Part shown: piece after piece, positions 827-33,779 of the stretch
How the letters are laid out: each line of letters opens with the position of its first letter
Position numbering within the stretch: the first letter of the stretch is position 1
Assembly (NCBI RefSeq): GCF_016862895.1
Contig: NZ_BONV01000062.1
Span: 1-33,779 of the forward strand
Direction: 5' to 3'
Length of the DNA: 33,779 nucleotides
From: Planotetraspora kaengkrachanensis
Lineage (GTDB): Bacteria; Actinomycetota; Actinomycetes; Streptosporangiales; Streptosporangiaceae
Notes under the pieces: generated by a model
Told to the model about the DNA's origin: nothing
Databases searched by the model: none
What the model saw: the letters and a program-made list of their open reading frames with translations, nothing else
Translations under genes and position numbers: made by a program

Positions 827-2278
827 TCACGCCTGCGAGGGGATGCCCTGCCTCCGCGGCCGGCCTGTCCCGTGGACCGGCGGGTACGACCGGGACCCGC
901 TCCTCACGGCCGCCACGAGGCGCGCGGCCAGCCCGGCGGCCTGCGCGCGGATCTCCGGGATGGCCGTGGTCTCGTACCGCGTGCCCCGCAATGTCGGCCC
1001 CAGAGTGAAGATCCTCTCGCTGGGCCGTCCCCAGACGTCGAGCACGGCGCCGCCGTCGTCGGCGTCCAGGCCGAGGCCCAGCGCGTCGGGACGGCCGAGC
1101 CCGGCGGCGAAGAATCCGGAAAGGAAGGGATCGCGGGACACGTCGGACGCCGGGCCGGTGCCGTTGACCACCCAGCCGACGCGGAGGTCGCGAGGCGTTC
1201 CCTCCTCGTCCACGTGGGCGACCACGCCGTCCTCGGCGGCCGTGGTCCCGGTGAGCCGGCCGCGTACGACCTCGAGGCGTCCTTCCGCCCGCAGCAGGGA
1301 GACGCGAGAGGCCGTCGAGGGAGGGATCCGGTGCCGGTGGACCTCCCAGTAGCGGGCGACCAGGCCGAGGAAGCGGCGGCGGTCGTCGAGGGAGAGCCGG
1401 CCCCACAGTGCGGGGACGTGCGGGCGCAGGCCGTCCATCACCGAATGCCATTCGCCGTCCCCTGCCGTGACGGCGGTTCGCACGGCACGCAGCAGGTCGG
1501 TGAGTCGCGTCGCGTCGTCGGGAATCGGCACCGGGGCCGGTGGTCCGGCGGGACATCGGTGCGCGCGGGGAAGCAGGCCGTGCCTGGACAGCGCGTACAC
1601 CGTTGTGCCCGGACGCCCCCGGGTCACGGTTATCGCCACATCGATCATGGTCAGCCCGGTGCCCACGACCAGAACGGAGCTCCCGTCACCGATGTGGGCG
1701 ATCGCGCCCGGCGCCCAGGGGTCGCCGACGTAACGCCCCGCGACGTCCTCTGTCACCTGCGGCAGGCGCGCGGGCCTGGTGTTGCCGAGGGCGAGGACGA
1801 CGGCGTCGGCGTCGATCCTGCCGCCACCGGACAGGTGGACCACGGGCCTGCCGGGCAGCGACCGCGAGACGGAGGAGACCTCCCCGGTCACACGTGTCAC
1901 CACGGCGTCGGGGGAGGCGTCGTTCTCGGCGGCGGACAGCACGTCGCGCAGGTAGCGCCCGTAGACGGCGCGCGGCAGGAAGTCGGATCCCGCGGCGTCG
2001 AGGCCGCTCGCCCGCGCCCACCTCAGGAGGTGGCCGGGATCGTCGGCGATCGCGCTCATCTTGTCGGCGCAGGCGTTGAGGAGGTGATCCGGGTCTTCGG
2101 TCGCGTAGGCCTGTCCCATGCCATGGCGTCCGTACCGGTCGACCAGGACGACCCGCAGCGCCGTGCGGGAATCGGCCGCATGACGGAGCAGGTGCACTGC
2201 CGTGAGGGTGCCGCTCGCGCCGCCACCCACGATCGCCACCACGGGGAGACGGCCTTGCTGAGCTGAGGAATCGACCAC
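827..2278 (-). CDS. FAD/NAD(P)-binding protein (PF13454-like)
   Basis: A 483-residue flavoprotein of the FAD-NAD(P)-binding type, related to YdhS-like proteins whose substrate is usually unknown. The N-terminal Rossmann motif VAIVGGGASG (about residues 15-24) binds the FAD dinucleotide. Further on come a second glycine-rich nucleotide motif (VLVVGTGLTMID) and a C-terminal NGTGP block typical of the family. The reading frame stays open upstream to 2431, but that part lies in the 53-bp repeat array and looks non-coding. I therefore set the start at GTG 2278, about 14 residues before the Rossmann fold. There is no strong ribosome site at this GTG, so the start is uncertain and the mRNA may be leaderless. 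It is the nearest gene to the left arm of array A. Confidence 0.82.
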   Translation of the reverse strand: MVDSSAQQGRLPVVAIVGGGASGTLTAVHLLRHAADSRTALRVVLVDRYGRHGMGQAYATEDPDHLLNACADKMSAIADDPGHLLRWARASGLDAAGSDFLPRAVYGRYLRDVLSAAENDASPDAVVTRVTGEVSSVSRSLPGRPVVHLSGGGRIDADAVVLALGNTRPARLPQVTEDVAGRYVGDPWAPGAIAHIGDGSSVLVVGTGLTMIDVAITVTRGRPGTTVYALSRHGLLPRAHRCPAGPPAPVPIPDDATRLTDLLRAVRTAVTAGDGEWHSVMDGLRPHVPALWGRLSLDDRRRFLGLVARYWEVHRHRIPPSTASRVSLLRAEGRLEVVRGRLTGTTAAEDGVVAHVDEEGTPRDLRVGWVVNGTGPASDVSRDPFLSGFFAAGLGRPDALGLGLDADDGGAVLDVWGRPSERIFTLGPTLRGTRYETTAIPEIRAQAAGLAARLVAAVRSGSRSYPPVHGTGRPRRQGIPSQA

Positions 2279-2366: not shown

Positions 2367-2538
2367 GTGATCATGCACAAGCTCGGCGGCGTGCGGGACG
2401 ACCCGGGCGAACCCCGATCGTGATCATGCACAGGTTCGGCGGCGTGTGGGTTGACCTGGGCGTACGCCGTTCGTGATCATGCGCGAATTCGTCGTGGCGC
2501 GGGCTGAGCTGGAAGTTCTCACTCGGTGATCATGCGTT
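2367..2538 (+). repeat. 53-bp repeat array A, forward arm (4 units)
   Basis: Four copies of the core GTGATCATGC start at 2367, 2420, 2473 and 2526, exactly 53 bases apart each time. Units 1 and 2 carry the full 5' block GTGATCATGCACARGYTCG, then GGCGGCGTG, and a second conserved block (GACCYGGGC) near unit position 34. Unit 3 is diverged after the first ten bases and only the core of unit 4 remains. A 53-base period cannot keep a reading frame, so this is not a protein repeat. It lies between the start of the FAD/NAD(P) gene (minus) and the SHOCT gene (plus). Confidence 0.9.
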
Positions 2539-2696
2539 CGCTGGCGTTTCTTCTCGTACGGCCGCGCGCCCCGTCGCACGGGGGAAGCGGCGTGGGGACG
2601 GGTGGTTGCCAGCCGTCCAGATTGCCCTGATGGGTATCCATACCTAGGAGATCGCCTGGTGGGGTTGCATGGTGAGGGTCGCTTGGGCGCCGTCTT
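2539..2696. other. Unique spacer between the arms of array A
   Basis: About 158 bases without the repeat core separate the two facing arms. No supported gene lies here. A small perfect dyad GGTATCCATACC is present at 2633-2644. If the locus were transcribed, this segment would form the loop of a large foldback. Confidence 0.5.
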
Positions 2697-2892
2697 GCTG
2701 CATGATCACGGACGGCGAAGGTGCGGGTCGGGCCACAAGCCGTCGAACTTGTGCATGATCACGAACGGCGTACGCCCAGGTCAACCCGCACGCCGCCGAA
2801 CCTGTGCATGATCACGCCGGGGGGCAGGGGCATGATCACGATCAGGGTTCGTCCGGGTCGTCCCGCACGCCGCCGAGCTTGTGCATGATCAC
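2697..2892 (-). repeat. 53-bp repeat array A, reverse arm (5 cores, 24-bp insertion)
   Basis: The same unit occurs in reverse orientation, with core ends (CATGATCAC on the plus strand) at 2709, 2762, 2815, 2839 and 2892. Spacings are 53, 53, 24 and 53. The 24-base step is an extra 15 bases plus a duplicated 9-base core. Read on the minus strand, unit 2840-2892 matches forward unit 2367-2419 at 51 of 53 bases. Unit 2763-2815 matches forward unit 2420-2472 at 52 of 53. The innermost pair (2710-2762 against 2473-2525) matches at only about 33 of 53. The arms are therefore nested mirror partners. Confidence 0.9.
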
Positions 2893-3083: not shown

Positions 3084-3335
3084 ATGTATGTGTACGGAAT
3101 CGCGACGAGCCAGGAGGAAGCCCTCTTCCTTCTCCTCACTGTCCTGTTCTGGGTGGCGATCTTCGGCGGCGTCGGGGCCGCGCTGCGTTCCAAGGCCAGG
3201 GACCGCCGGTCGAGGACACCCGAGGACGTCCTCTTCCAGAGGTTCGTCGCCGGAGAGATCGACGACGACGAGTACCGCCACGATCGTGAAGCCCTCCGCC
3301 GCGTGCCCCACCTGTGCGGACGCGACGGCTCGTGA
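3084..3335 (+). CDS. Small membrane protein with SHOCT-like C-terminus
   Basis: An 83-residue protein with one hydrophobic segment (about residues 13-35) followed by a basic stretch and a SHOCT-like motif (about 46-71: PEDVLFQRFVAGEIDDDEY). SHOCT is a short C-terminal oligomerisation-type domain common on small actinobacterial membrane proteins; its exact role is unknown. The ATG is preceded by GGGGAG at a normal distance, which supports the start. Its stop lies 13 bases before the stop of the convergent HD-domain gene. It is the first gene to the right of array A. Confidence 0.75.
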   Translation: MYVYGIATSQEEALFLLLTVLFWVAIFGGVGAALRSKARDRRSRTPEDVLFQRFVAGEIDDDEYRHDREALRRVPHLCGRDGS

Positions 3336-17011: not shown

Positions 17012-17023
17012 CGCCCTCGTGGG

Positions 17024-17195
17024 GTGATCATGCACAGGTTCGTGAACGCGCCCGCCGACCTGCGCCGACACCTCGCGTGATCATGCACGGGTTCGTGAAC
17101 GGGTCCGCCGACCTGCGCCGACACCTCGCGTGATCATGCACAGGTTCGGCGATGCATGCTCTGACCTGCGCCTGCGATCTCCGTGATCATGCATG
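17024..17195 (+). repeat. 53-bp repeat array B, forward arm (4 units)
   Basis: Cores GTGATCATGCA start at 17024, 17077, 17130 and 17183, each exactly 53 bases apart. Units 1 and 2 agree at 50 of 53 bases. The first three share the block GTGATCATGCACRGGTTCG and the second block (YGACCTGCGC) with the units of array A. The array begins 12 bases after the TetR stop. Confidence 0.9.
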
Positions 17196-17276
17196 GAGGT
17201 CGGTCCGATTTCCCGTTCGCGCGCCCCTGCGGCCGCCTGGGTGATGTTGTCGTGGTTCGCGATGACGCTCTCATTG
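17196..17276. other. Unique spacer between the arms of array B
   Basis: About 80 bases without repeat cores lie between the forward and reverse arms. No gene is supported here. As in array A, this separates units of opposite orientation. Confidence 0.5.
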
Positions 17277-17391
17277 CCAGATCACGAATGGCATCGCCGC
17301 AGATGGGAGGGTGTTTCTCCGAAAGTGTGCATGATCACGAACGGAGAAACGCCTGATGGCGGCCGTTCCGTGCGAAGGTGTGCATGATCAC
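17277..17391 (-). repeat. 53-bp repeat array B, reverse arm (2 clear units, 1 degenerate)
   Basis: Reverse cores end at 17338 and 17391 (CATGATCAC on the plus strand), 53 bases apart. A degenerate core, CCAGATCAC, ends at 17285, again exactly 53 bases away. Beside the cores the reverse units keep TTCG at the expected position but otherwise do not match the forward arm, unlike the mirror pairs of array A. Confidence 0.85.
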
Positions 17392-17409
17392 GCACGGAGG
17401 AGGGGCAGG

Positions 17410-17907
17410 TGGCGGCGGCCTGCGCTGATCGACCGCGTCCGCGAGTTCGGCGTGCCCGCGACCTACGACGCGGACACCGAGGAATGCGCGCCCGGCCCCG
17501 ACCCCGGATACGGCGGCCGGCACCTGTCCGCCGACGCCGAGGGCCTGACCATCTACTACGGCAGGAACGGCAAGGGCTACCTGATCGCGTCCAGCCAGGG
17601 CGACGACACCTTCGCCGTCTACGGCAGGGGCGGCGGGAACCGCTTCATCGGGTCGTTCCAGGTCGGCGACCACGGCGGCGTCGACGGCGTGCAGGCGAGC
17701 GATGGGGCGATGGTGGTCAACGTGCCGCTCGGCCGCGACTTCCCCAAGGGCCTGTTCGTCACGCACGACGGCGCCAACACCCCCGTCGCGCTCGACCCGG
17801 ACGGTGAGATCCGCGAGAACACCGACTTCAAGTACGTCAAGTGGGACGACATCGCGCGCCCTCTCGGCCTGGAGGTCGACACCAGGAGCGGAGATCCTCG
17901 CGGCTGA
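17410..17907 (+). pseudogene. 5'-truncated phytase (C-terminal third only)
   Basis: About 165 codons match the C-terminal blades of beta-propeller 3-phytases. Landmarks are DRVREFGVPATYD, SADAEGLTIYYG, GYLIASSQGDDTFAVY, the DHGGVDGVQ turn, FPKGLFVTHDG and NTDFKYVKWDDIARPLGL near the end. These enzymes release phosphate from phytate outside the cell and are normally around 400 residues with a signal peptide. Here the first roughly 250 residues, including the signal peptide, are missing. Homology begins about 20 bases after the last repeat core of array B. No credible start or ribosome site exists, so I call it a remnant. Confidence 0.75.
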
Positions 17908-33228: not shown

Positions 33229-33779
33229 GTGGCAGGCGCACGAGGGCCGCATCCTTCGTCTTCTTCTGGTGCAGGCGACCTGCCGTGCGGTCCCGAATGG
33301 TGGGCCGAGGTGACCGCCCAGGCGAGGTCGTCCGACGGCAGTTCGGCGTTGAGCTTTCCGGCGTCGAGCTTTCCGCCGGTGACCGACCAGTGGCCGGATT
33401 CGGCCTCTCGTGGCCTGTCGTTCGGGAGCCCGCCACGTCCCGGCCCGGCAGAGTCGGGGGCGCCGGTGGTGGAGTTCCCCGGTTCGGGTTGCGCTGTTCC
33501 TCCGGATTCGGTTTCCTCGGTGCCGGACCCGTCCGCCTCGAGTTCGCCGAGTTTCACCCCGCCGTCCTCGTCCTCGTCCTGGCCGTCCTCGTCCTGGCCG
33601 TCCTCGTCGTCTCCGTCGGGCGAGCGGTGTGCGGCTGAGGGGTGTGCGGCTGAGGGGTGTGCGGCTGGGGGGTGTGCGGCCGGCGGGTCTGTATGGCCGG
33701 ATGATCTGGTGGTCAGGGTTGTCGAGGTGGCGTCGGCCTTGGCGCTGGCCGAGTTCCCTGCCTCGCCGTCCATGTGCTT
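33229..33779 (+). CDS. N-terminal part of a Ser/Pro-rich protein, possibly DUF222/HNH type (runs off the right edge)
   Basis: From GTG 33229, with AAGGGGG just upstream, a frame stays open for 183 codons to the window end. The product begins MAGARGPHPSSSSG, then is Ser/Pro/Gly-rich. It carries four tandem CAAEG/CAAGG pentapeptides near residues 135-155, then a helical start (WPDDLVVRVVEVASALALAEF). Low-complexity N-termini followed by a Leu/Ala helix are common in actinobacterial DUF222-HNH endonucleases, but the diagnostic part is outside the window. An opposite-strand frame (33773-33198, Asp/Glu-rich) shares the same wobble position and cannot be excluded by codon use. Confidence 0.5.
   Translation, partial: MAGARGPHPSSSSGAGDLPCGPEWWAEVTAQARSSDGSSALSFPASSFPPVTDQWPDSASRGLSFGSPPRPGPAESGAPVVEFPGSGCAVPPDSVSSVPDPSASSSPSFTPPSSSSSWPSSSWPSSSSPSGERCAAEGCAAEGCAAGGCAAGGSVWPDDLVVRVVEVASALALAEFPASPSMC
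33634..33682 (+). repeat. 15-bp tandem repeat (four copies) inside the last CDS
   Basis: TGTGCGGCTGAGGGG and variants are repeated in tandem about four times, encoding CAAEG, CAAEG, CAAGG and CAAGG in the plus frame. The period is a multiple of three, so copy-number changes keep the frame. Confidence 0.7.

Follow-up and report, generated by a model that had tools for sequence, protein, structure and literature searches.

The window analysed here, a 33,779-nucleotide stretch of Planotetraspora kaengkrachanensis DNA, carries two arrays of 53-bp units. They belong to what seems to be a previously undescribed family of actinobacterial repeats, patchy in its distribution, in which the end word is nearly invariant, the dialect varies by species and the geometry of the arrays is rigid. 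We tentatively read these arrays, with a probability of roughly 0.4, as tagged, bidirectional gene-end transcription terminators or roadblocks recognized by a putative sequence-specific factor. The near-invariant core, the species-wide dialect and the fixed step are most simply explained by a reader that recognizes a specific sequence. If such a factor does read the arrays, the bacteria that carry them would end or insulate genes through sequence recognition. Gene ending in high-GC bacteria is poorly understood, and the dialects would offer a direct route to the putative factor.

Array A consists of a forward arm (2366–2540) followed by a reversed one (2658–2893). The forward arm (plus strand) holds three full 53-bp units starting at 2366, 2419 and 2472 (2366–2524) and a degenerate innermost unit with only its core left (2525–2540), its four cores lying at 2367, 2420, 2473 and 2526. 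Beyond the centre (2541–2657), the reverse arm (minus strand) runs from a degenerate inner unit (2658–2710) through two full units (2711–2763 and 2764–2816; together with the inner unit, 2658–2816) to a 24-bp mini-unit with an extra core (2817–2840) and the outermost unit (2841–2893). Its cores are at 2698, 2751, 2804, 2828 (the mini-unit) and 2881, and its units end at 2710, 2763, 2816 and 2893, with the mini-unit between the last two. The initial annotation had described nested mirror pairs on facing 53-base ladders. This holds for the forward arm; in the reverse arm the mini-unit, which had been missed, interrupts the regular 53-bp spacing. The reported identities were reproduced: the outermost pair agrees at 50 of 53 bases when framed from the base before GTGATC and at the annotated 51 of 53 if the frame starts one base later, the next pair agrees at 52 of 53, and units 1 and 2 of the forward arm (F1/F2) at 44 of 53. 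Nesting is confined to these two outer pairs and does not extend to the inner units (F3 vs R2, 34/53; F4 vs R1, 17/53).

Array A is far from chance. With up to three mismatches allowed, the 19-mer singled out in the annotation was found 11 times in the window, where 0.01 occurrences would be expected; 6 of the matches fall in array A and 5 in array B. The predicted RNA fold of 2360–2900 has a z of −19.3, with 0 of 100 shuffles as stable. The array occupies a divergent gap between the gene for a FAD-NAD(P)-binding protein (827–2242, minus strand) and a small gene call (3084–3335, plus strand) that has no Pfam match. Lying between divergent genes, the window's own case is not typical of arrays. 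Extra cores at 18–35 bp spacing, as at 2817–2840, are also seen in several other arrays, often at the outer ends of arms; they were not counted systematically, and suggest a second mode of array growth.

A genome-wide search with spacing analysis, as proposed in the annotation, found many arrays in the genome of the window (G000; 8.77 Mb, 96 contigs) and in its relatives, and the 53-bp step is general. The outcome that would have refuted the annotation, a single strain-specific inverted duplication with no further arrays, was therefore not the one found. The 13-mer GTGATCATGCACA occurs 400 times in G000 (203 forward, 197 reverse; reversed control, 0), 33, 140, 463 and 497 times in four genomes of the same genus, and 0 or 1 times in the remaining 26 genomes. 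Five species were compared: G000, a further Planotetraspora genome (G001), P. phitsanulokensis (G002), P. mira (G003) and P. silvatica (G004). They hold 540, 716, 185, 664 and 653 copies, respectively, of the looser pattern TGATCATGC-N5-TTCG, and the two sets of counts together indicate that G001 uses another spelling and that P. phitsanulokensis is depleted. Of the exact 13-mer cores listed for G000, 51 fall on contig C1 (606 kb), and contig C2 has just 2; density may be uneven. The consensus of 135 full G000 units is CGTGATCATGCACAGGTTCG, about 12 variable bases, C(C/T)GACCTGCGC and a variable tail, and the shared near-invariant core is the ten-letter word GTGATCATGC.

Same-strand neighbouring cores (range 40–66 bp) are exactly 53 bp apart in 614 of 648 cases, with 23 at 52 bp and 7 at 54 bp; the figure is 216 of 227 when only contigs and the window, and not loci selected for spacing, are counted. 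Two or more full units are present in 156 distinct arrays. Both arms contain full units in 79 of these, and all 79 begin with the forward arm; 77 of the 156 (42 of the 79) came from loci chosen by a pattern demanding a 52–54 bp step, and one set of sampled stretches was chosen for holding cores. Of the neighbouring cores on opposite strands no more than 400 bp apart, 82 are ordered forward-to-reverse (peaks at 24 bp, n = 17, and 77 bp, n = 7) and 6 reverse-to-forward. Exceptions to this order, all outside the 79, include G004:C2:346755, where a single reverse core comes ahead of three forward ones, and the clusters at G000:C1:299164 and G002 30621. Single-arm arrays also retain the 53-bp step, so hairpin pairing is not the sole reason for the spacing. 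A hairpin inside the unit was rejected as well: no column pair stands out in the 135 units (top Watson–Crick z of 3.3 among 1275 pairs), and G001 has a similar motif 2 despite its different dialect. A coding repeat was dismissed because 53 is not divisible by three and most arrays lie between called genes, and a known RNA family because Rfam models gave 0 matches in the window at the gathering threshold.

Between P. mira and P. silvatica, 3 of 710 core positions changed, compared with 200 of 1207 variable positions, in 71 aligned units for which intact cores were required in P. mira (2 units were rejected, 5 were dropped for gaps, and 10 of the 71 were kept with an internal gap). Judged from these alignments, the core GTGATCATGC is strongly constrained. 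The letters after the core differ between species in the manner of a dialect, as the counted units indicate: column 13 is C in 56/61 units of G000, 19/20 of G002, 59/61 of G003 and 61/63 of G004, and G in 34/35 of G001. G001 shares arrays with the other species at syntenic loci, and unit-level orthology is convincing for few full units. In one syntenic array, the G001 units at 269120 and 269173 are 73–88% identical in variable columns yet differ in dialect. Other G001 syntenic unit pairs, at an identity of 0.67, fall within the background tail (99th percentile, 0.70), and in a counter-case (G001 94361 and G003 98936; identity 0.67) both species have G at column 13. The dialect pattern would fit a changing recognition factor better than replacement of whole arrays, although the evidence for change in place is thin, coming from two units.

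These data bear on whether the arrays could be functionless products of neutral inverted and tandem duplication. Arrays do expand and contract between species, and in array A part of an arm seems to have been duplicated as its mirror image. Against this, the core is about 40-fold less changed than the variable columns of the same units, the 53-bp step persists even though unrelated units agree at only about 44% of their variable columns, and the dialect is species-wide. Core constraint and dialect speak strongly against a neutral origin, which we regard as extremely improbable.

Placement was scored for 151 of 167 arrays, 16 being dropped for having no flanking gene or a gene inside. Genes were called with a home-made codon model (here as for the neighbours of array A and for the compact pairs described below), and the background set was made up of 573 intergenic gaps, each 150 bp or longer, array-bearing gaps included. 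Arrays lie between convergent genes in 57 of 151 cases (38%) compared with 82 of 573 background gaps (14%), between divergent genes in 11 (7%) compared with 188 (33%), and between co-directional genes in 83 compared with 303; arrays of the five species were counted separately here, as in the array-order, mirror-similarity and permutation counts, and orthologous arrays are therefore not independent in these counts. Flanking genes end next to arrays, with 55% of 197 3′ ends within −5 to 25 bp of the array and 9.5% of 105 5′ ends, and the stop codon of some genes is a TGA inside the first array core. The best 40-nt hairpin at gene ends with arrays has a median of −13.8 kcal/mol in G000 (n = 19) and −14.3 kcal/mol in G003 (n = 15), compared with −21.0 (n = 70) and −23.2 kcal/mol (n = 40) at array-free convergent ends. 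Random stretches (−17.0 and −16.2) also form stronger hairpins than array-bearing gene ends, so the missing hairpin may only reflect the make-up of the arrays or the space they fill. As far as gene calls and predicted folds go, placement and missing ordinary hairpins point to transcription ends.

From here we infer a factor, a termination function and a mechanism of conversion. The putative factor would read the tag GTGATCATGC together with the species dialect after it, and the factor-bound array, with its central hairpin, would stop or block RNA polymerase coming from either side. The site of action would be gene 3′ ends, above all between convergent genes. The forward-then-reverse order would offer the same site face to polymerase arriving from either side, and the 53-bp step, about five helical turns, would keep successive sites in register on the DNA. 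As the arms are inverted repeats, foldback or gene conversion may occasionally homogenise mirror partners, and this would account for the near-identical outer pairs of array A. Counting against termination are the divergent position of array A, the weak tie between arm orientation and the adjacent transcript (of the single arms flanked by co-directional genes, 29 point along transcription and 18 against it), and the loss or shortening of many arrays in P. phitsanulokensis.

The enrichment between convergent genes would also suit sites bound by a nucleoid protein, a topoisomerase or a chromosome-organising protein, placed at convergent ends where positive supercoiling builds up. The 53-bp step of single-arm arrays and a bipartite unit that lacks convincing internal base-pair covariation fit such sites too. 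Proteins of these kinds are usually conserved, however, and the repeat is patchy and much reduced in P. phitsanulokensis, which makes this reading an unlikely one.

The initial annotation held that similarity follows the mirror axis and not adjacency, which is true of the outer pairs of array A and fails as a general rule. Mean variable-column identity is 0.501 for same-arm neighbours, 0.481 for mirror partners, 0.444 for non-partners and 0.439 between different arrays. Permuting partners within the 79 two-armed arrays gives 0.456 (sd 0.0057), with 0 of 2000 permutations reaching the observed 0.481, and the excess persists when array A is removed. Mirror partners are homogenised beyond chance, but modestly, and array A is an extreme case. 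At six loci, mirror partners were compared with orthologues. At G000:C1 loci 28555 and 100205, the best mirror pairs (0.91 and 0.85) exceed the best matches in relatives (0.52–0.67), and the G003 copy of locus 100205 behaves likewise (0.76, compared with 0.52–0.61 to relatives). At a third locus the G003 mirror pair reaches 0.94, compared with 0.88 to G004; elsewhere, orthologues are equally or more alike than mirror partners (the central pair of locus 126025 was excluded since it overlaps itself). That G000 mirror partners exceed orthologues at two of six loci supports recurrent conversion of a foldback type. Homogenisation along the mirror axis thus recurs, one process among others. Of the two options offered in the annotation, inverted duplication of an arm and foldback homogenisation, the second gains from the small mirror excess and these two loci, and loses from the other loci, at most of which orthologues match as well or better.

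Many arrays are old, to judge from shared loci. The segment common to G000:C1 and G003:C1 contains 12 G000 arrays with a 53-bp step, and at every one of these loci P. mira has an array too. P. phitsanulokensis mostly has shorter arrays at shared loci, with three cases of no array, and at one locus an eight-core, 404-bp G000 array corresponds to a single near-perfect 55-bp hairpin. Site A differs. Comparison with sister species, which the annotation had recommended, found the site array-free in G002, G003 and G004, each of which aligns on both sides of it. The G001 alignment is confined to the left side, and one exact core was seen in the 20 kb fetched there. Array A may therefore be fairly recent. 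Between the flanks lie 50 bp in G003, 127 bp in G004 and 1.87 kb in G002. This last stretch includes a minus-strand gene with amine-oxidase/FAD domains (L198:6753-8348, from G002:C43), a gene absent between the matching flanks of site A in G000, G003 and G004.

Array B (17023–17392) is of the same kind as array A, with three full units and a degenerate fourth in the forward arm (17023–17194, plus strand) and two units in the reverse arm (17287–17392, minus strand). Its arms are dissimilar (variable-column identity, 0.24). Site B has no array in G002, G003 or G004, which align on either side of it; G001 aligns to the left of the site only, and the 20 kb retrieved from it contains one core at most. 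Directly after array B comes a 5′-truncated phytase remnant (17416–17907, plus strand) that matches only positions 246–363 of 375 in the Phytase profile. In G002, G003 and G004 the site holds a longer gene, whose 3′ part matches the remnant and which continues upstream; by our own count on the sequences, array B occupies the place of the first ~0.84 kb of the phytase gene. The array at G003:C1:60118, common to G004, similarly occupies the place of a called gene in G000 (65386–66129). The distance between its flanks is 944 bp in G000, 903 bp in G002 and 760 bp in G001, compared with about 460 bp in G003, and its first core provides the stop codon of the preceding gene. In these alignments, two lineage-specific arrays (B and G003:C1:60118) thus coincide with missing gene sequence. 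Such replacements would fit arrays that were end-joining scars, in which broken chromosome ends, carrying or being given arms of inward-pointing 53-bp units, fused into a forward-then-reverse order, much as in telomere fusions. The units of the new arrays already differ from each other, however, and so were not freshly made from one template; we consider this origin very unlikely.

The main rival to a gene-end terminator is a selfish, REP-like element moved by a putative enzyme. Insertion after genes would be tolerated, the enzyme would need the core, and the dialect would track the enzyme. We rate this as possible, though on the doubtful side. Consistent with it, array A aligns with the array at G000:C42:75380-75797 over 412 bp including the centre, at 69%, which suggests block copying at some point; arrays A, B and G003:C1:60118 are lineage-specific; the distribution across the class is patchy; and divergent gaps are avoided. 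A search for shared centres among 45 array centres (60–400 bp) gave only orthologue-like matches (by contigs, synteny unchecked) or short or partial ones, and the idea of common centres was set aside; the match between array A and C42 came from separate alignments. Against a REP-like element, the Y1_Tnp domain (PF01797) has 0 matches in 15 of the 17 tag-bearing genomes tested, i.e. G000 and 14 of the 16 others (one genome tested, G223, has a single tag pair). Matches were found in G001 (four, including two short pieces and one that carries stops) and G103 (one). Mobilisation by a RAYT was rejected for G000, G002, G003 and G004, which have no such gene. The 12 arrays kept at the same P. mira loci also argue against it, and copying of new elements less easily explains two orthologous units that differ in dialect. 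Array A has no match in plasmids or phages, and the tagged hairpin none in viral contigs, in collections that may omit records close to the genome of the window; a phage or plasmid origin was rejected on these grounds. The Y1_Tnp genes or pieces lie at G001:C42, C12 and C55 and at G103:C221, and their fetched flanks hold no exact tag.

REP elements, and BIMEs among them, are short tagged palindromes of high copy number that form inverted pairs. The Planotetraspora repeat resembles REP/BIME/REPIN in all of these respects and in its intergenic position near gene ends, and thus shares the REP/REPIN trait of being palindromic, intergenic and high in copy number. It differs in running forward-then-reverse at a 53-bp step and in the lack of a Y1/RAYT gene in those 15 of 17 tag-bearing genomes. 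The DNA uptake sequences of Neisseriaceae consist of a near-invariant word of about 10 bp, with dialects, and their inverted pairs serve as terminators. The likeness extends to hairpin pairs at gene ends; here, the word sits in arrays of 53-bp units and the hosts are actinobacteria. MIRU and VNTR loci of mycobacteria are intergenic tandem units of about 53 bp and are likewise actinobacterial, but the present arrays have mirror arms and a constrained core, with a variable remainder common to many loci. Sal boxes are eukaryotic arrays of terminator-protein sites behind ribosomal RNA genes. The proposed logic of repeated, oriented protein sites just behind genes is similar, and the analogy is one of function only. 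The tag of the Planotetraspora repeat is GTGATCATGC and not GTAG or CGTC, the two tags named in the title of PMC3733652, whose text has 0 occurrences of five actinobacterial terms. A 12-mer of the repeat forms part of one ArgR-type site listed in a table of PMC5839063. Among the literature matches listed, by titles and the starts of abstracts, no paper deals with the Planotetraspora 53-bp repeat.

Beyond the genus, 150 genomes of the family were surveyed. Three genomes of genus g60 hold 108, 96 and 2 core copies and two of g58 hold 34 and 5, in other dialects and mainly as compact inverted pairs in the fetched loci; G074 of g69 has 7 copies, some at 53-bp steps. Among 394 genomes of the class, the inverted-pair pattern was found in 14, one-hit genomes being at the level of the reversed control (5 genomes, one hit each). 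Seven of the 14 lie outside the family, with 3 to 44 sites each, and their stems differ by genome. By this pattern search, tag-bearing compact hairpins occur, patchily, in other actinobacterial families. The 22 fetched loci contain 21 compact pairs: 10 lie between convergent genes, 8 between co-directional genes (a single locus supplies 5 of these) and 0 between divergent genes, with 2 located within a called gene and 1 undecided. At 5 of 7 loci tried, a pair folds into a largely uninterrupted stem of some 22 or more base pairs, and several of the compact forms outside the genus are long hairpins within 20 bp of a called gene end. On predicted structure, the compact forms look like bidirectional terminators. 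At locus L319, from another family, three forward cores stand at 45-bp steps. This is not a whole number of helical turns, and so counts against a terminator that depends on helical register.

Two further observations concern individual loci. The two compact tag pairs inside a called gene at L291 (G104:C1:47000-50500) possibly reflect a wrong gene call. In the window itself, 33569–33680 carries two short tandem arrays with 15-bp units, CGTCCTCGTCCTGGC and GAGGGGTGTGCGGCT.
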